This document shows positions 18,146-45,997 of a DNA stretch of 64,000 nucleotides, piece by piece (within the stretch, counting starts at the first letter, position 1; every line of letters begins with the position of its first letter). The position numbers and the translations under genes are program-made. The stretch comes from Sulfitobacter pontiacus (GTDB lineage Bacteria > Pseudomonadota > Alphaproteobacteria > Rhodobacterales > Rhodobacteraceae), in NCBI RefSeq assembly GCF_040790665.1, contig NZ_CP160849.1:1885501-1949500 (forward strand). Reading direction: 5' to 3'. The notes beneath the pieces are model-generated. The model had not been told where the DNA came from. It searched no databases and was given only the letters and a program-made list of their open reading frames with translations.

Positions 18146-18177
18146 GCATGGTAAAACAATTCTTGGGAGGGAATTAC

Positions 18178-34115: not shown

Positions 34116-34460
34116 TTACGCGTCGCTGTCCGGTGTGCAGAACATATCATAGACGACTTCCATGATCTTTTGCGGACGGTCATCGGCCAGCCTGTAAAAG
34201 ATCGTTTTGCCGTCGCGGCGTGGCGTTACCAGCCCTTCTAGCCGCAAGCGTGACAGCTGTTGGGATACCGCCGCCTGACGGGCGGACAGCAGCTCTTCCA
34301 GCTCGGTGACGGATTTTTCGCCTGCAGAGAGGTGACACAGGATCATCAACCGCCCCTCATGGCTGATCGCCTTGAGGAAGTTAGAGGCACGTGCGGCGTT
34401 TTCGGCCATACGGTCCCGATCGGCTTGGCTCATTTCTGTGTCGGAACCGGGGTTACCCAC
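34116..34460 (-). CDS. soxR: ArsR-family sulfur-oxidation repressor SoxR with a two-cysteine persulfide sensor
   Basis: 114-residue winged-helix repressor. The DNA-reading helix is around LLSARQAAVSQQLSRLRLEG (residues about 57-76). Two cysteines, Cys42 (MILCHL) and Cys108 (MFCTP), lie 66 residues apart, as in SqrR, BigR and YgaV, where they form a tetrasulfide with persulfides and release DNA. The GTG at 34460 is preferred because AAGGA precedes it; ATG at 34433 would remove nine residues but keep both Cys. Proteins of this name in other sox clusters repress sox transcription from the soxS-soxV and soxW-soxX gaps. Confidence 0.88.
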   Translation of the reverse strand: MGNPGSDTEMSQADRDRMAENAARASNFLKAISHEGRLMILCHLSAGEKSVTELEELLSARQAAVSQQLSRLRLEGLVTPRRDGKTIFYRLADDRPQKIMEVVYDMFCTPDSDA

Positions 34461-34904: not shown

Positions 34905-34975
34905 AGGGAATTCACCTGTTGATTTCAAAATACTTAATGTGAATATGTGAATGGCACAAGATAAAGGCAACCTGC
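34905..34975. promoter_or_regulatory. soxS-soxV divergent promoter region
   Basis: A 71-bp AT-rich gap between divergent genes. It holds an imperfect palindrome TTCAAAATAC-TTAATGTGAA (34924-34943) and a GTGAAT half-site repeated at 34939-34944 and 34947-34952. In other sox clusters SoxR binds here. The exact ATTC-N8-GAAT motif found in front of soxX is absent, so any site here is degenerate. Confidence 0.5.
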
Positions 34976-36344: not shown

Positions 36345-36369
36345 AAATTCAATAAATTGAATTTATAGT
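36345..36369 (+). promoter_or_regulatory. SoxR operator and -10 region of the soxX promoter
   Basis: A perfect 9-bp inverted repeat AAATTCAAT-AA-ATTGAATTT (36345-36364) contains an exact ATTC-N8-GAAT (36347-36362), the motif described for SqrR-type repressors. A near-consensus -10 element TATAGT (36364-36369) overlaps its right edge, so a bound repressor would block the promoter. It lies 63 bases before the soxX start, the soxW-soxX gap known to bind SoxR in other bacteria. Confidence 0.75.
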
Positions 36370-37736: not shown

Positions 37737-38591
37737 ATGAGCAATTTCACAAAAGGTCTGGGCGCGTGCCTTGCTGCGGCGCTGATGTCGACGGGGGCCT
37801 TCGCCGATCCCGTGGATGATACGCTGGTGATCAACGAAGAGATCGACATCGTGACCCGCACTGCCGCCCCCGCGCATATGGCGGACGCGGTAGACGAGGT
37901 CATGTCGGGCTGGCTTTTCCGCGGCACCGAGACCCGTGCGATGCAGGCCGATGATTTTGACAACGCGGGCATGATTTTTGTGGAACAGGCCGAAGATGTC
38001 TGGAACACCGCCGACGGGTCAGAGGGTAAATCCTGCGCGGATTGTCACGGGGCCTCGGCCGAGATGGCGGGCGTGCGTCCGGTCTATCCCAAGTATGTCG
38101 AAGCCGCGGGCGAGGTGCGCACGCTGGAAATGCAGATCAACGATTGCCGCGAGAACCGCATGGGGGCGGAAAAGTGGAAATACACTGGCGGCGACATGGT
38201 GAACATGACGGCGCTGATCTCCTCTGTCTCGCGGGGGATGCCGGTGAACATCGCCATCGACGGTCCGGCCCAATCCACATGGGAGCAGGGCAAAGAGATC
38301 TACTATACCCGTTTCGGCCAGCTTGAACTGTCCTGTGCCAATTGCCACGAGGACAATTATGGCAACATGATCCGTGCCGACCACCTGAGCCAGGGCCAGA
38401 TCAACGGCTTCCCGACTTACCGTCTGAAAAACACCAAGCTGAACGCGGTGCAGGCCCGTTTTAAAGGCTGTGTACGCGACACCCGTGCCGAGACCTTTGA
38501 CCCCGGCAGCCCCGAGTTTGTCGCGCTAGAGCTGTACGTCGGCTCGCGCGGAAACGGGCTGTCGGTCGAAGGGCCCTCTGTCCGGAACTAA
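37737..38591 (+). CDS. soxA: Diheme cytochrome c subunit SoxA
   Basis: 284-residue periplasmic enzyme that with SoxX oxidatively joins thiosulfate to SoxY. A signal peptide ends near residue 23 (AFADP). Two heme sites are present: Cys100-Ala-Asp-Cys103-His104 and Cys200-Ala-Asn-Cys203-His204, so this is the diheme form. Cys137 (NDCREN) is the likely distal ligand of the first heme. Cys245 (KGCVRDTR) is the active-site cysteine ligand that carries the persulfide. The ATG at 37737 follows GAGGAA. A terminator follows the stop. Confidence 0.95.
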   Translation: MSNFTKGLGACLAAALMSTGAFADPVDDTLVINEEIDIVTRTAAPAHMADAVDEVMSGWLFRGTETRAMQADDFDNAGMIFVEQAEDVWNTADGSEGKSCADCHGASAEMAGVRPVYPKYVEAAGEVRTLEMQINDCRENRMGAEKWKYTGGDMVNMTALISSVSRGMPVNIAIDGPAQSTWEQGKEIYYTRFGQLELSCANCHEDNYGNMIRADHLSQGQINGFPTYRLKNTKLNAVQARFKGCVRDTRAETFDPGSPEFVALELYVGSRGNGLSVEGPSVRN

Positions 38592-38595
38592 CCTG

Positions 38596-38632
38596 AAAAG
38601 ACCCGTTTCGTCGATGCGAGGCGGGTCTTTTT
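38596..38632 (+). terminator. Terminator between soxA and soxB
   Basis: A ten-base perfect stem AAAAGACCCG with CGGGTCTTTT around a 16-base loop, ending in a T run. It lies inside the sox cluster five bases after soxA and would reduce or stop read-through into soxBCD. Confidence 0.75.
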
Positions 38633-38643
38633 ATCATATTGTT

Positions 38644-38665
38644 ATTCAAATATGCGCATATGAAT
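38644..38665. promoter_or_regulatory. Palindromic element upstream of soxB
   Basis: The perfect 12-bp palindrome ATATGCGCATAT (38650-38661) is flanked by ATTC (38644-38647) and GAAT (38662-38665). Removing two A bases would make the whole a perfect ATTC...GAAT palindrome. It lies between the soxA terminator and the soxB start, in the right place for a secondary promoter or operator. Confidence 0.45.
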
Positions 38666-38687
38666 TGCGCGTCGAAAAGGCCAACCT

Positions 38688-40391
38688 ATGATCTCTCGTC
38701 GTGATTTTCTTCAGGCCAGCATGGCTGCAACGGCTTTGTATGGTGCGTCGTCCTTTGGCAACTGGGGCAAGCTTGCCGCGCAGCAGGCGTTGACGCAGGA
38801 TAAATTGCTTGAATTCGACACTTTCGGGAATGTCAGCCTGATCCACGTGACCGACATTCACGCGCAGTTGAAACCGATCTATTTCCGCGAACCTTCGGTC
38901 AACATCGGTGTGGGCGAGAACCGCGGGAAGGTGCCGCATCTGACCGGCGTGGATTTCCGCAAGCTTTACGGGATCGCGGACGGCAGCCCCTCGGCCTATG
39001 CGCTGACCTATAACGATTTTTCGGCGCTGGCGCAGGGCTATGGCAAGATGGGCGGTCTGGACCGTGTGGCGAGTGTGGTCAACCAGATCCGCGCGGACCG
39101 GCCCGATGCGCTGCTGCTGGATGGCGGCGACACCTGGCACGGCAGCTACACCTGCTACCACACGCAAGGTCAGGACATGGTCAACGTGATGAACGCGCTC
39201 AAGCCTGACGCGATGACCTTTCACTGGGAATTCACGCTCGGCTCCGACCGCGTGGCAGAGATCGTCGAGGGGCTGCCCTTTGCCGCCCTGGGGCAGAACA
39301 TCTTTGACGCCGAATGGGACGAACCGACAGAGCTTTTCCCACCCTACAAGTTCTACGAGACAGGTGGCGTCAAAGTCGCGGTGATCGGGCAGGCTTTCCC
39401 CTATATGCCGATCGCCAACCCCGGCTGGATGTTCCCCGAATACTCGTTTGGTATCCGCGATGAGCGGATGCAGGAAATGGTGGACGAGGTCCGCGCCAAA
39501 GGGGCCGAACTGGTCGTCTGCCTGAGCCACAACGGCTTTGATGTGGACAAGCAGATGGCGGGCGTGGTGACGGGGATCGACGTGATCCTGTCGGGTCACA
39601 CCCATGACGCGCTGCCCGAGCCTGTGCTGGTGGGCGACACGATCATCGTCGCCTCGGGGTCGAACGGCAAATTCGTCAGCCGCGTCGATCTGGACGTGCG
39701 CAACGGCCGCATGATGGGCTTCCGCCACAAGCTGATCCCGATCTTCTCTGATGTGATTGCGCCTGATCCGGCGATGAGCGCGCTGATCGACGCACAACGC
39801 GCCCCCTATCTTGACCAACTGACAGAGGTGATCGGCACCACTGCCGAAGACACGCTGCTCTACCGGCGCGGCAATTTCAACGGCACGTGGGATGACCTGA
39901 TCTGCGACGCGCTGCTTTCCGAGCGCGAGGCCGATATCGCGCTGAGCCCCGGTGTGCGGTGGGGGCCGTCGATCCTGCCGGGACAGGACATCACGCGCGA
40001 GGATATCTGGAACGTCACCTCCATGACCTACCCCGAAGCCTACCGGACCGAGATGACCGGTGAATTCCTGCATGTCGTGCTGGAAGACGTGGCCGACAAC
40101 CTGTTTAACCCCAATCCCTATTACCAGCAGGGCGGTGACATGGTGCGCACAGGCGGGCTTGGCTACCGCATTGACGTGACCCAGCCCCAAGGCAGCCGCA
40201 TCACTGAACTGACCTTGCTGAAAACCGGTGAACGTATCGATCCGGCCAAGACGTATCAGGTTGCAGGCTGGGCCAGCGTGAACGAAGGCACCGAGGGCCC
40301 CGCGATCTGGGACGTGGTCGAAAGCCACATCCGCAAGCAGGGCAGCGTGTCGCTGGACCCCAACACCAGCGTCATCGTCAAGGGCGCGTAA
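38688..40391 (+). CDS. soxB: Thiosulfohydrolase SoxB
   Basis: 567-residue periplasmic di-manganese hydrolase that releases sulfate from the sulfonate bound to SoxY. A twin-arginine signal (SRRDFLQASMAATAL) opens the protein. The metallophosphoesterase motifs are HVTDIHAQLKP near residue 54, LDGGDTWHGSYT near residue 143, CLSHNGFDVD near residue 278, and SGHTHDALPEP near residue 303. A 5'-nucleotidase-type C-terminal domain follows. The length matches SoxB of Paracoccus. This is the marker gene for the complete Sox pathway. Confidence 0.97.
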   Translation: MISRRDFLQASMAATALYGASSFGNWGKLAAQQALTQDKLLEFDTFGNVSLIHVTDIHAQLKPIYFREPSVNIGVGENRGKVPHLTGVDFRKLYGIADGSPSAYALTYNDFSALAQGYGKMGGLDRVASVVNQIRADRPDALLLDGGDTWHGSYTCYHTQGQDMVNVMNALKPDAMTFHWEFTLGSDRVAEIVEGLPFAALGQNIFDAEWDEPTELFPPYKFYETGGVKVAVIGQAFPYMPIANPGWMFPEYSFGIRDERMQEMVDEVRAKGAELVVCLSHNGFDVDKQMAGVVTGIDVILSGHTHDALPEPVLVGDTIIVASGSNGKFVSRVDLDVRNGRMMGFRHKLIPIFSDVIAPDPAMSALIDAQRAPYLDQLTEVIGTTAEDTLLYRRGNFNGTWDDLICDALLSEREADIALSPGVRWGPSILPGQDITREDIWNVTSMTYPEAYRTEMTGEFLHVVLEDVADNLFNPNPYYQQGGDMVRTGGLGYRIDVTQPQGSRITELTLLKTGERIDPAKTYQVAGWASVNEGTEGPAIWDVVESHIRKQGSVSLDPNTSVIVKGA

Positions 40392-41678: not shown

Positions 41679-42687
41679 CAGCATTGCTTTGTGCCTCATC
41701 GCTACGGCCACGGCTTTGCCCTTGGCGGCGGCCCCCTTCGGTCTGGGCCGCGCCGCGCTGCCGGAAGAGATCGCGGCCTGGGATGTGGACGTGCTGCCCG
41801 ATGGGCGCGGTCTGCCCGAGGGGCAGGGCGATGTGCTGACGGGCGAAGCGATCTTTACCGAAAAATGCGCCGCCTGCCACGGGGACTTTGCCGAAGGCCG
41901 CGGGAATTGGCCTGCGCTCGCGGGCGGTCAGGACACGCTGGCGGATGCCGATCCGGTCAAGACGGTCGGGTCTTATTGGCCGCATCTGTCCACAAGCTTC
42001 GACTATATCCGCCGATCCATGCCCTATGGCGATGCGGGAACGCTGACGGCGGATGAGGTCTATGCCATCGTGGCGTATATCCTCTATTCCAACGATCTGG
42101 TGGCAGAGGAATTTACCCTGTCCAAAGACAACTTCGCCACGGTCCGGATGCCCAATGCCGACGGTTTCCTTCGCGATGACCGCGACACCACCGAAGTGCC
42201 GCGCTGGCAGGTCGATCCGTGTATGGAGGACTGCAAGGAAAGCGTGAACGTTACTATGCGCGCGCTGTCACTGGATGTGACGCCCAAGGACGCCGCCCCC
42301 GCGACTGAGCCGCAAGAAACGCCCGTTGCCGATGTCGAGCCAGTGTCAGAGCCTGCTGCCGACCCTGCCTTGCTCGCCGATGGAGAGTTGGTGTTCCGCA
42401 AATGCAAAGCCTGCCATCAGCTGGGCAAACGCGCCAAAAACCGCGCGGGCCCGGTCCTGAACGGGATCGTCGGTGCGCCTGCCGGTGGGGTCGAGGGGTT
42501 CAAGTACTCGCGCGCCCTGATGGCGCAGGCAGAGGATGGGCTAATCTGGACACCCCAGACGCTGGACGCTTTTCTGGCATCACCGCGCAGCTTCATGAAG
42601 GGCACCAAGATGGGGTTTTCCGGCTTGAAAAGCGATGCCGAGATCAAGGCGGTGATCGCCTATCTGAACAGCTTTCCTGCCCCGTGA
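41662..42687 (+). CDS. soxD: Diheme cytochrome c subunit SoxD
   Basis: 341-residue periplasmic cytochrome that accepts electrons from SoxC. A signal peptide covers residues 1-24. Two cytochrome c domains are visible, with Cys69-Ala-Ala-Cys72-His73 and Cys248-Lys-Ala-Cys251-His252. They are joined by a Pro/Glu-rich linker at about residues 207-238. The ATG at 41662 lies inside the end of soxC and is preferred over the TTG six bases earlier. With soxC present, the bacterium should oxidise thiosulfate fully to sulfate without sulfur globules. Confidence 0.94.
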   Translation: MSKFLNSIALCLIATATALPLAAAPFGLGRAALPEEIAAWDVDVLPDGRGLPEGQGDVLTGEAIFTEKCAACHGDFAEGRGNWPALAGGQDTLADADPVKTVGSYWPHLSTSFDYIRRSMPYGDAGTLTADEVYAIVAYILYSNDLVAEEFTLSKDNFATVRMPNADGFLRDDRDTTEVPRWQVDPCMEDCKESVNVTMRALSLDVTPKDAAPATEPQETPVADVEPVSEPAADPALLADGELVFRKCKACHQLGKRAKNRAGPVLNGIVGAPAGGVEGFKYSRALMAQAEDGLIWTPQTLDAFLASPRSFMKGTKMGFSGLKSDAEIKAVIAYLNSFPAP

Positions 42688-42759
42688 CGGCGCGGATGAC
42701 TGGCGGCGCGCGTCGAGGATGTTAGGGTAAGCGCGTGCCCCTTTGTGAAAGGACCAAGG

Positions 42760-43197
42760 ATGAGATCGTTACAGATTGCCGCAGCACTTTGCCTTTATGC
42801 CGCACCGCTCGCCGCTCAGGATCAGGCCGTGACCTACGTATACGACGGCAGCTTTGACGATGCGACCTTCGCGGTCGAGAACGCGATTGTCGGCAAGGGG
42901 CTGGTCATCGACCACGTCAGCCACACAGGCGAGATGCTGGCACGTACCGCCAGCGATGTCGGCAGCGAAGTCGAGATCTTTCGCGCGGCAGACGTGTTTC
43001 TGTTTTGCTCTGCCGTGGTGTCGCGCAAGGTGATGGAGGCGGACCCGATGAACATCGCCCATTGCCCCTACAGCATCTTTGTCACCGACATCGATGGCGC
43101 GGTTTCTGTCGGGTATCCGACCTACCCGGACGGCCCCATGCAAGAGGTGCAGGCCCTGCTGGACGAGATCACGCAAAGCGCGCTGGACGGGTTTTGA
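42760..43197 (+). CDS. Exported DUF302 domain protein
   Basis: 145-residue protein with a Sec signal (residues 1-18, ending PLAAQD) and one DUF302 domain. The domain's core is recognised by VENAIVGKGLVIDHVSHTGEM near residue 36, then MNIAHCPYSIFVTDIDGAVSVGYP near residue 93. Two cysteines are present (FLFCSAV and AHCPY). DUF302 proteins have no settled function. Some occur in sulfur-oxidation and nitrite-related neighbourhoods. It lies 72 nt downstream of soxD with its own AAGGA site, so it is probably the end of the soxB-D transcript. An exported helper of sulfur chemistry is an inference. Confidence 0.75.
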   Translation: MRSLQIAAALCLYAAPLAAQDQAVTYVYDGSFDDATFAVENAIVGKGLVIDHVSHTGEMLARTASDVGSEVEIFRAADVFLFCSAVVSRKVMEADPMNIAHCPYSIFVTDIDGAVSVGYPTYPDGPMQEVQALLDEITQSALDGF

Positions 43198-43284
43198 ATG
43201 CTGCCGCTGTTGCGTAGAAAAGGCGGCAGGCACAGGACGCTTTGTCGCGGCGGCTGTGGCGGTCCGGCAGCACAATCCGCTTCC

Positions 43285-43310
43285 TTGACAAAGAATTCCA
43301 TAGTATGAAT
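43285..43310 (+). promoter_or_regulatory. Candidate promoter and SoxR operator of the persulfide dioxygenase gene
   Basis: A perfect -35 element TTGACA (43285-43290) is followed by an exact ATTC-N8-GAAT palindrome (43295-43310). A bound repressor would cover the spacer and -10 region. No good -10 hexamer is evident at the ideal distance. The motif matches the one in front of soxX, and the gene at 43381 encodes a persulfide-removing enzyme, the usual target of SqrR/BigR regulators. Confidence 0.65.
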
Positions 43311-43380
43311 GTGTTCGACTCGACGACGGGGCGCAGCCTTCAGATGTCGGGCGAAAAAAGCGCAAACGGAGCAGGTGACC

Positions 43381-44265
43381 ATGACTGAATACCCCGTGAA
43401 TATGGATGTCGTCCCCGATGTCTCGGGCCACTTTGATCCGGTGACCAATACGATCAGCTATATCGTGCGGGATCCGAACTCCAACGCCTGTGCGATCATC
43501 GATTCCGTGATGGATATCGACTATGCCGCCGGACGGATCACCTATGACCACGCGGACAAGCTCATCGCCGAGGTCGAAGCGCAGGGGCTCGCGCTGGAGT
43601 GGATCATTGAGACCCACGTCCATGCCGACCACCTGTCCGCCGCACCCTATATCCAGCAAAAGCTGGGCGGCAAGATCGGCGTCGGAGAGCAGATCATGAC
43701 CGTGCAGGACACTTTTGGGAAAGTGTTCAACGAGGGGACGGAATTCCAGCGCGACGGCTCGCAGTTCGACGCCTTGTTCAAGGATGGCGACCGCTACCGC
43801 GTCGGCGGCATGGAGTGTTTTGCCATCTACACCCCCGGTCACACGCCCGCATGCATGGTGCATGTCATGGGCAACGCTGCCTTCACGGGCGATACGCTGT
43901 TCATGCCCGACGGCGGCTCTGCCCGCGCGGATTTCCCGGGGGGCGACGCCGGAGAGCTGTATGACAGCATCCAGAAGGTTCTGTCCCTGCCGGACGATAT
44001 GCGCCTGTTCATGTGCCACGACTACGGGCCCAATGGGCGCGATATCCAGTGGGAAACCACCGTGGGCGAAGAGAAGGCGCATAACATCCATGTGGGCGGC
44101 GGCAAAACGCGCGCCGAATTCATCGCCTTTCGCACCGAACGCGACGCGCAGCTGTCGATGCCGAAGCTGATCATCCCGTCGCTTCAGGTCAACATGCGCG
44201 CAGGGCATATGCCGCGTGACAAGGACGGGAACCTGATGCTCAAGGTGCCGGTGAACGGGTTGTAA
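43381..44265 (+). CDS. Persulfide dioxygenase, ETHE1/Blh-like metallo-hydrolase
   Basis: 294-residue MBL-fold enzyme without signal peptide, so cytoplasmic. The iron site is THVHADH (His79, His81, Asp83, His84), with a second His in PGHTPACMVH near residue 156 and Asp in GDTLFMPDGG near residue 169. The Arg in GSARADFPGG corresponds to the glutathione-contact region of ETHE1, and FMCHDYGP near residue 201 is conserved. Members oxidise glutathione persulfide to sulfite. The ATG at 43381 follows GGAGCAGG. The SulP gene follows after 4 nt. The gene is BigR/SqrR-regulated in other alphaproteobacteria. Confidence 0.85.
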   Translation: MTEYPVNMDVVPDVSGHFDPVTNTISYIVRDPNSNACAIIDSVMDIDYAAGRITYDHADKLIAEVEAQGLALEWIIETHVHADHLSAAPYIQQKLGGKIGVGEQIMTVQDTFGKVFNEGTEFQRDGSQFDALFKDGDRYRVGGMECFAIYTPGHTPACMVHVMGNAAFTGDTLFMPDGGSARADFPGGDAGELYDSIQKVLSLPDDMRLFMCHDYGPNGRDIQWETTVGEEKAHNIHVGGGKTRAEFIAFRTERDAQLSMPKLIIPSLQVNMRAGHMPRDKDGNLMLKVPVNGL

Positions 44266-44269
44266 TCGG

Positions 44270-45997
44270 GTGCGTATCCCCGCCGCTGCCCGCCGCTATC
44301 TGCCTGTCCTCGACTGGGGGCGCGACTATGACAGGGCGGCCTTGTCCAATGATCTGATCGCGGCGGTGATCGTCACGATCATGCTGATCCCGCAATCGCT
44401 GGCCTATGCGCTGCTGGCGGGGCTGCCGCCCGAAGCGGGGCTCTATGCATCTATCGCGCCGATCCTGCTTTATGCCGTCTTTGGCACCAGCCGCGCGTTG
44501 GCGGTGGGGCCGGTGGCGGTGGTGTCGCTGATGACCGCGGCCGCCTTGGGCAATATCGCCGATCAGGGCACGATGGGCTATGCCGTCGCCGCGCTGACGC
44601 TGGCCTTGCTGTCTGGGGTGATGCTGCTGGTGATGGGCGTTTTCAAGCTGGGGTTTCTGGCGAATTTCCTGTCCCACCCCGTGATCTCGGGCTTTATCAC
44701 CGCCTCTGGCGTGATCATCGCCGCCAGCCAGATCAAGCATATTCTGGGCATCGATGCCTCTGGCGGCAATCTGGCAGAGCTGCTGATGTCGATCTGGGCC
44801 AATCTGGGCACGGTGAACGGGACGACGGTGGTGATTGGTGTGTCCGCGACGCTGTTTCTGTTCTGGGTGCGCAAGGGGCTGAAACCTTTCCTGCGCGCGC
44901 GCGGCGTTGGCCCACGGGCGGCGGATGTGGCGACCAAGGCGGGTCCCGTGGCGGCGGTGGTTGTCACCACATTGGCGGTCTGGGCTTTCGATCTTGCGGG
45001 GCAGGGCGTCAAGATCGTGGGGGCCGTGCCGCAAAGCCTGCCGCCGCTGACCCTGCCGGACCTGTCGTTCGATCTGATGGGCAGCCTGCTGCTGCCGGCC
45101 TTTCTGATCTCTGTCATCGGGTTTGTTGAATCCATCTCTGTCGCGCAAACGCTTGCCGCGAAACGGCGTCAGCGCATCAATCCGGATCAAGAGCTGATCG
45201 GTCTGGGGGCGGCCAATATCGGCGCGGCCTTTACGGGGGGCTATCCGGTCACGGGGGGCTTTGCACGGTCTGTGGTGAACTTTGACGCAGGGGCGCAGAC
45301 ACCGGCGGCGGGGGCCTATACCGCCGTGGGGCTGGCCGTGGCCGCACTGGCGCTGACGCCGCTGGTCTTCTTTCTGCCGCAAGCGACTTTAGCCGCGACG
45401 ATCATCGTGGCCGTGCTGACGCTGGTGGATTTCTCGATCCTGAAAAAAGCATGGGGCTATTCCAAATCCGATTTCGCTGCCGTGCTGTCCACCATGTTGA
45501 TCACCTTGGGCAGCGGGGTCGAATTGGGGGTGACCTGCGGGGTGGTGCTGTCGATCTTTCTGCATCTCTATAAAACCACCAAACCGCATATTGCCGAAGT
45601 CGGGCTGGTCCCGGGCACCGAACACTTCCGCAATATCAACCGCCATGAGGTCGAGACCTGCCCGACGGTGCTGACCCTGCGCATCGACGAGAGCCTGTAT
45701 TTCGCCAACGCGCGGTTCCTGGAGGATTGCATCTACGACCGGCTGGCGGGCAATACCTGTCTGCGCCATGTCGTGCTGATGTGCTCTGCCATCAACGAGA
45801 TCGACTTTAGCGCGCTGGAATCGCTTGAAGCGATCAACGCACGGCTGCGCGACATGGGGATCAAACTGCACCTGTCCGAGGTCAAAGGCCCCGTCATGGA
45901 CCGTCTGAAAAAGCAGCATTTCATCTCGGATTTGACAGGCAGCGTGTTCCTGTCCCAGCATGCAGCCTATGTCGCCTTGGGAAAAGCTGCCGCATAG
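44270..45997 (+). CDS. SulP/SLC26 family anion transporter with STAS domain
   Basis: 575-residue membrane protein. The SLC26 core covers about residues 20-420, with the signature IPQSLAYALLAGLPPEAGLYAS near residue 40 and AFTGGYPVTGGFARSVVNFDAG near residue 322. A cytoplasmic STAS domain follows at about residues 460-570. The start is a GTG four bases after the dioxygenase stop, with no clear ribosome-binding site, so translation is likely coupled. Family members move sulfate, bicarbonate or dicarboxylates. Beside a persulfide dioxygenase, sulfate or sulfite movement is the simplest guess. Confidence 0.88.
   Translation: MRIPAAARRYLPVLDWGRDYDRAALSNDLIAAVIVTIMLIPQSLAYALLAGLPPEAGLYASIAPILLYAVFGTSRALAVGPVAVVSLMTAAALGNIADQGTMGYAVAALTLALLSGVMLLVMGVFKLGFLANFLSHPVISGFITASGVIIAASQIKHILGIDASGGNLAELLMSIWANLGTVNGTTVVIGVSATLFLFWVRKGLKPFLRARGVGPRAADVATKAGPVAAVVVTTLAVWAFDLAGQGVKIVGAVPQSLPPLTLPDLSFDLMGSLLLPAFLISVIGFVESISVAQTLAAKRRQRINPDQELIGLGAANIGAAFTGGYPVTGGFARSVVNFDAGAQTPAAGAYTAVGLAVAALALTPLVFFLPQATLAATIIVAVLTLVDFSILKKAWGYSKSDFAAVLSTMLITLGSGVELGVTCGVVLSIFLHLYKTTKPHIAEVGLVPGTEHFRNINRHEVETCPTVLTLRIDESLYFANARFLEDCIYDRLAGNTCLRHVVLMCSAINEIDFSALESLEAINARLRDMGIKLHLSEVKGPVMDRLKKQHFISDLTGSVFLSQHAAYVALGKAAA

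Follow-up and report, generated by a model that had tools for sequence, protein, structure and literature searches.

A candidate SoxR operator before a persulfide dioxygenase gene of Sulfitobacter pontiacus, probably inherited from a divergent soxGH pair

In a stretch of 64 000 nucleotides of Sulfitobacter pontiacus DNA (the window), the motif ATTC-N8-GAAT begins 86 nt upstream of the ATG of a gene for a predicted persulfide dioxygenase (pdo) that lies beyond a sox gene cluster. This raises the question of whether pdo answers to the repressor SoxR encoded in the cluster and of how it came by such a site. An earlier note on this DNA had placed the motif at 43295-43310, a TTGACA at 43285-43290 and the start of the gene at 43381, and all three lie where it put them. 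We regard it as likely, with a probability of roughly 0.78, that the box is a SoxR operator on pdo and the following transporter gene (sulP), that it is relieved by sulfane sulfur and that it was inherited from a divergent soxGH pair which has since been lost; this reading draws on comparisons of sequence. The features discussed are collected in Table 1.

Table 1. Positions in the window of the sox regulator, the pdo-sulP region and the predicted regulatory sites
Feature	Positions	Strand	Remarks
SoxR, ArsR-type repressor, Cys42 and Cys108	34116..34460	-	Start codon not certain
Conserved site between soxS and soxV, one degenerate half; likely further SoxR site	34929..34944		Profile score 16.5
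Candidate operator before soxX, ATTCAATAAATTGAAT	36347..36362		Found before soxX in all 21 congeneric sox loci compared
Conserved palindrome before soxB; likely further SoxR site	38644..38665		Profile score 25.1
DUF302 protein	42760..43197	+	Between soxD and the operator
Putative remnant of the soxG ribosome-binding site, GGAAG	43280..43284	-	GGGAAG/GGAAAG before the soxG ATG in the ten soxG-keeping genomes
TTGACA	43285..43290	+	In two of the 12 box genomes
Candidate SoxR/SqrR-type operator, ATTCCATAGTATGAAT (ATTC-N8-GAAT)	43295..43310		16-mer invariant before pdo in the 12 genomes holding it
Decayed -10-like hexamer of the lost soxG promoter, CACATT	43308..43313	-	CATATT in the other 11 genomes (by eye)
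Decayed -35-like hexamer of the lost soxG promoter, CTGCGC	43331..43336	-	TTGCNN with a 17 nt spacer in the ten soxG-keeping genomes (by eye)
Persulfide dioxygenase (by family), MBL fold	43381..44265	+	Aligns with the dioxygenase part of Blh; transferase domain absent
SulP family transporter with STAS domain	44270..45997	+	4 nt after the dioxygenase gene

The sox cluster, its regulator and the pdo-sulP pair

The gene order is soxR-soxS (minus strand), soxVWXYZABCD, the DUF302 gene, pdo and sulP; the sox names other than soxR are ones that we presume from gene order and general knowledge. SoxR matches the ArsR helix-turn-helix family HTH_5 with 39.9 bits (cut-off 22), and its two cysteines lie 66 residues apart, as in the SqrR/SoxR/BigR group of repressors; among the six HTH_5 hits in the genome, this spacing occurs in SoxR alone. 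Residues 5-111 of its 114 align with solved chains of the ArsR family with both cysteines in register. We take these chains to be SqrR. Their C9S sequence pair fits the accessible part of PMC9995734, in which the cysteines of SqrR are C41 and C107; those of Hyphomicrobium SoxR are C50 and C116 in the accessible part of PMC12423496. Against the BigR model NF040642 the protein scores 96.2 bits, below the curated cut-off of 155, on which ground BigR was rejected as its name.

The motif is the deduced SqrR site of Rhodobacter capsulatus in the excerpts of PMC9774250, and a text search of the literature returned the string ATTC-N8-GAAT from that paper alone. Excerpts of related work describe that polysulfide prevents binding of SoxR in Hyphomicrobium and that SoxR affects genes outside the sox operons there (PMC10451225), and place pdo among the likely targets of the SqrR/SoxR/BigR group (PMC12423496). 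Within Sulfitobacter, the motif stands at the proposed targets of SoxR: among 21 congeneric sox loci it precedes soxX in all 21 and soxG in all 14 that hold this gene.

The pdo product has the MBL fold (Lactamase_B, 70.8 bits, cut-off 22.7); its residues 11-291 match the solved chain 9g8t and, more weakly, residues 125-236 match the human-type ETHE1 chain 4chl. Persulfide dioxygenase activity is predicted from this family membership. The Blh model NF040641 matches with 356.7 bits (cut-off 625) over profile positions 138-422 of 423 only, and the name Blh was rejected because this cut-off was missed and the N-terminal transferase domain is absent. In genomes G019 (L053:17218-18897) and G044 and in a record of S. 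marinus, the dioxygenase gene is followed by one for a DUF442 domain fused to an SQR-like oxidoreductase, an arrangement that fits a sulfide/persulfide oxidation unit.

The earlier note had treated the pdo-sulP pair as a transcription unit separate from soxD. This holds for ten of the 12 genomes that carry the box, since pdo and soxD have one or more oppositely oriented genes between them there. The window has no such gene and read-through is possible there; a search of the gap between the DUF302 gene and pdo found no terminator-like site, the single match lying within the DUF302 gene.

Occurrence of the motif and conservation of the box

The bare motif is found three times in the window, against 0.78 expected, and at least three occurrences were obtained in five of 100 shuffles. 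The genome-wide search that the earlier note had proposed located 21 sites in 3.55 Mb (five for the reversed pattern), 13 of them intragenic according to rough gene calls made in this analysis. This count is not significant, because the expected rate of the window scaled to the genome would exceed 21, and an argument from motif counts alone was rejected on these numbers and on the intragenic share. The third exact site of the window (18159-18174) overlaps a Shine-Dalgarno-like GGGAGGG, and its 16-mer recurs once in the genome, at G000:C1:988832. We doubt that it is a third operator in view of this overlap and of its profile score of 12.9 (27.3 for the soxX site and 19.2 for the pdo box); it is probably a chance match.

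This profile was trained only on 21 soxG sites of other genera. Among the 21 exact sites of the genome it ranks the soxX site first, a resolvase-side site second (25.5) and the pdo box third, with two sites inside predicted genes close behind (18.4 and 17.5). The profile alone does not settle the pdo site, because this margin is small and the resolvase-side site ranks higher. The latter (L001:1501-1516; G000:C1:276674) is intergenic, and no sulfur gene was recognised in the 3 kb around it.

The earlier note had also called the pdo box a second operator beside that of soxX. The two are indeed of the same class, but the count is too simple: the motif appears to be the operator of soxG in many genera, and the region before soxB and the gap between soxS and soxV each hold a likely further site. 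In the region 38590-38690, soxA is followed by what looks by eye like a terminator hairpin and its T-run, and then by the conserved palindrome ATTCAAATATGCGCATATGAAT before soxB; soxB may have a SoxR-linked promoter of its own. Between soxS and soxV, a conserved block (34923-34945) has one half-site, GAATATGTG, the other half being degenerate.

What lifts the pdo box beyond chance is its conservation. The exact 16-mer occurs once per genome in 12 of the 62 genomes of the genus (that of the window included), and in all 12 it lies 85-88 nt before pdo; in a sample of 394 genomes of the family it was found in the window's own genome only. We examined the regions upstream of the 30 best-scoring of the pdo matches from 58 genomes. 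The identical 16-mer stands 85-88 nt before the start in the nine best-scoring of these orthologues, which form one side of a branch in the tree of the 30 (support 100/99). None of the remaining 21 has an exact match in the 400 nt upstream; one of them, L035, has two sites with one mismatch. In an alignment of the nine genomes no variation occurs in any of the 16 columns of the box, whereas only 41 of the 171 ungapped columns elsewhere are invariant; at position 43311, immediately 3' of the box, the window has G where the other eight genomes have A. The flanks of the box in the window genome agree with those of genome G046 at 109 of 111 positions, and with those of G012 at 71 of 111 with the box intact. 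A 20-base version of the site matched nine named records, all of Sulfitobacter or Roseobacter sp. and all with pdo adjoining, in a collection from which the window genome or its nearest relatives may be missing. Together with the deduced SqrR motif and the cysteine pair of SoxR, this conservation supports the prediction, made in the earlier note, of a SoxR-type operator of the soxX class before the dioxygenase gene.

SoxR would control pdo in one clade only, given the 21 orthologues without an exact site and the layout in genomes G037, G011 and G032, where pdo is sox-linked but some 1 kb away from the soxG site. SoxR is present in many genomes whose pdo has no exact upstream site. A Crp/Fnr-type regulator gene (L113:14776-15570) precedes pdo in G037, between pdo and the soxG site, and the same dioxygenase may therefore have changed its regulator between close relatives; a GGTGACAA-like palindrome was seen by eye before pdo in G037 and G011.

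The soxG gene and the promoter elements around the box

The box has a second neighbour. In ten of the 12 box genomes a divergent soxG-like gene of the MBL fold adjoins it on the opposite strand; the alignment of this gene begins 22-31 nt from the box, its ATG lies 21 nt from the box edge, and in our own reading the N-terminus of its product is twin-arginine-like. The names soxG and soxH for this gene and its neighbour are putative and draw in part on presumed protein sizes. A further basis is given by gene orders in the accessible part of PMC11034169, and a third by matches of the neighbour to SoxH-related models, although these fall below the cut-offs (132.6 of 280 and 125.5 of 300 bits). The best NCBIfam match of the divergent gene is an AidB lactonase model, likewise below its cut-off (131 of 360), which speaks against this naming.

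A survey of the family found soxG-like genes in 49 of 149 genomes. Outside the genus, the best 30 of 50 matches listed, each from another genus, were taken for their upstream regions. For 20 of these 30 genes the 260 nt upstream contain an exact ATTC-N8-GAAT; the count is 21 after one locus cut short upstream was put in register, and six of the remaining nine have a site with one mismatch in the same range. Shuffled controls (300 rounds) gave a mean of 0.17 loci and a maximum of two, and with N8 replaced by any other spacer length between 0 and 20 the count was 0-3 loci. A soxH-like gene neighbours 18 of the 30. The box at 43295-43310 appears, from this distribution, to have been first of all the operator of soxG. 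The locus has neither soxG nor soxH in the window strain and in G046, and a search at E 1e-60 did not find soxG elsewhere in the window's genome. S. litoralis DSM 17584 is a strain that retains soxG.

Read by eye on the minus strand, the ten genomes that keep soxG have the hexamers TTGCNN and CATATT separated by 17 nt, with CATATT overlapping the box, and then GGGAAG or GGAAAG ahead of the ATG. The -35-like hexamer reads CTGCGC in the window and G046, and the -10-like hexamer reads CACATT in the window. The earlier note had taken the TTGACA before the box for a promoter element. It occurs in the window and G046 only and lies beside the soxG ribosome-binding site of the other ten genomes, and was rejected as a conserved -35 element of pdo for its presence in two of 12. 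A sigma-70 scan of 42650-43500 found no promoter for pdo. In the centre of the box, N8 is fixed as CATAGTAT where pdo adjoins the box and is variable where the box adjoins soxG alone. We infer that the pdo promoter may overlap the box and be carried by this fixed centre.

Explanations of the box and relation to known systems

A plainer account of the site in the window is that the box served soxG only and is a leftover, with pdo reached by read-through from soxD-DUF302 or expressed from an unregulated promoter. The motif appears as a soxG operator in many genera, the gap before pdo yielded no terminator-like site, and soxG is gone from what is a young lineage, the flanks of the window genome and G046 being nearly identical, all of which is in keeping with such a relic. 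We nevertheless consider this unlikely: all 16 bases, N8 included, are fixed where pdo adjoins, whereas N8 varies at sites of soxG alone, and the soxG -35- and -10-like hexamers have decayed in the window while the box is preserved at 16 of 16 positions amid flanks that have diverged from G012. Binding of the box by a regulator other than SoxR is considerably less probable still. The genome has five further HTH_5 proteins, and our search for sensors covered the HTH_5 family, but only SoxR among the six has the cysteines 66 residues apart, the same motif precedes soxX in all 21 sox loci compared, and SqrR, which among characterised proteins is nearest to SoxR, has a matching deduced motif. We give hardly any credence to a chance match without function, for which the lack of genome-wide enrichment and the many intragenic sites would speak, as against a spacing to pdo that is fixed in all 12 genomes and the site before soxG-like genes of other genera.

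In the mechanism that we infer for a SoxR operator on pdo-sulP, a SoxR dimer would occupy the box when sulfane sulfur is lacking and block the start of pdo-sulP transcription. Oxidation of thiosulfate or sulfide would raise sulfane sulfur, the two cysteines of SoxR would become sulfur-bridged, and SoxR in this form would release the box, so that the cytoplasmic dioxygenase and the transporter would be made along with the Sox enzymes. Originally, the box would have served the divergent soxGH pair as operator. One Sulfitobacter clade would then have acquired a pdo start on the far side of the box, and the lineage of the window would have lost soxGH from the locus, the operator being kept by pdo-sulP. 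We favour, with some reservation, the fuller account in which an old soxGH operator came to be shared by pdo-sulP in one clade, its N8 was fixed by the core promoter of pdo and the loss of soxGH then left pdo-sulP as sole owner.

The proposed system resembles SqrR of Rhodobacter capsulatus in the ArsR fold, the cysteine pair in register, the recognition sequence and the sulfur-oxidation targets. SqrR is described as regulating sqr in the accessible part of PMC9995734, whereas the regulator here lies in a sox cluster and its proposed targets are soxX, soxG and pdo-sulP. SoxR of Paracoccus, Pseudaminobacter and Hyphomicrobium is likewise a sox-linked ArsR-type repressor with a cysteine pair and sites in sox intergenic regions; unlike those proposed here, the sites described in the excerpts of PMC10451225 and PMC12423496 do not include soxG or pdo. 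In the BigR/Blh system of Xylella a repressor of the SqrR group also controls a persulfide dioxygenase (PMC9995734, in part). Here, in contrast, the regulator falls short of the BigR cut-off and is encoded 9 kb from its proposed target, and the dioxygenase lacks the transferase half of Blh. Among the papers listed from one open-access library, none was noticed that describes SoxR acting at soxG or pdo, and an operator shared and inherited in this way is new to us. The surprise is limited because the type of regulator, its motif and this class of target were known before.

The conservation of the motif before soxG points to the operator of this gene as a conserved SoxR target in the family. Closely related Sulfitobacter species differ in the region upstream of pdo, so that the sharing and inheritance of operators can be tested directly within the clade. 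If the proposed reading is true, a cytoplasmic persulfide dioxygenase and a SulP transporter would be under the switch of periplasmic thiosulfate oxidation in a widespread marine genus.
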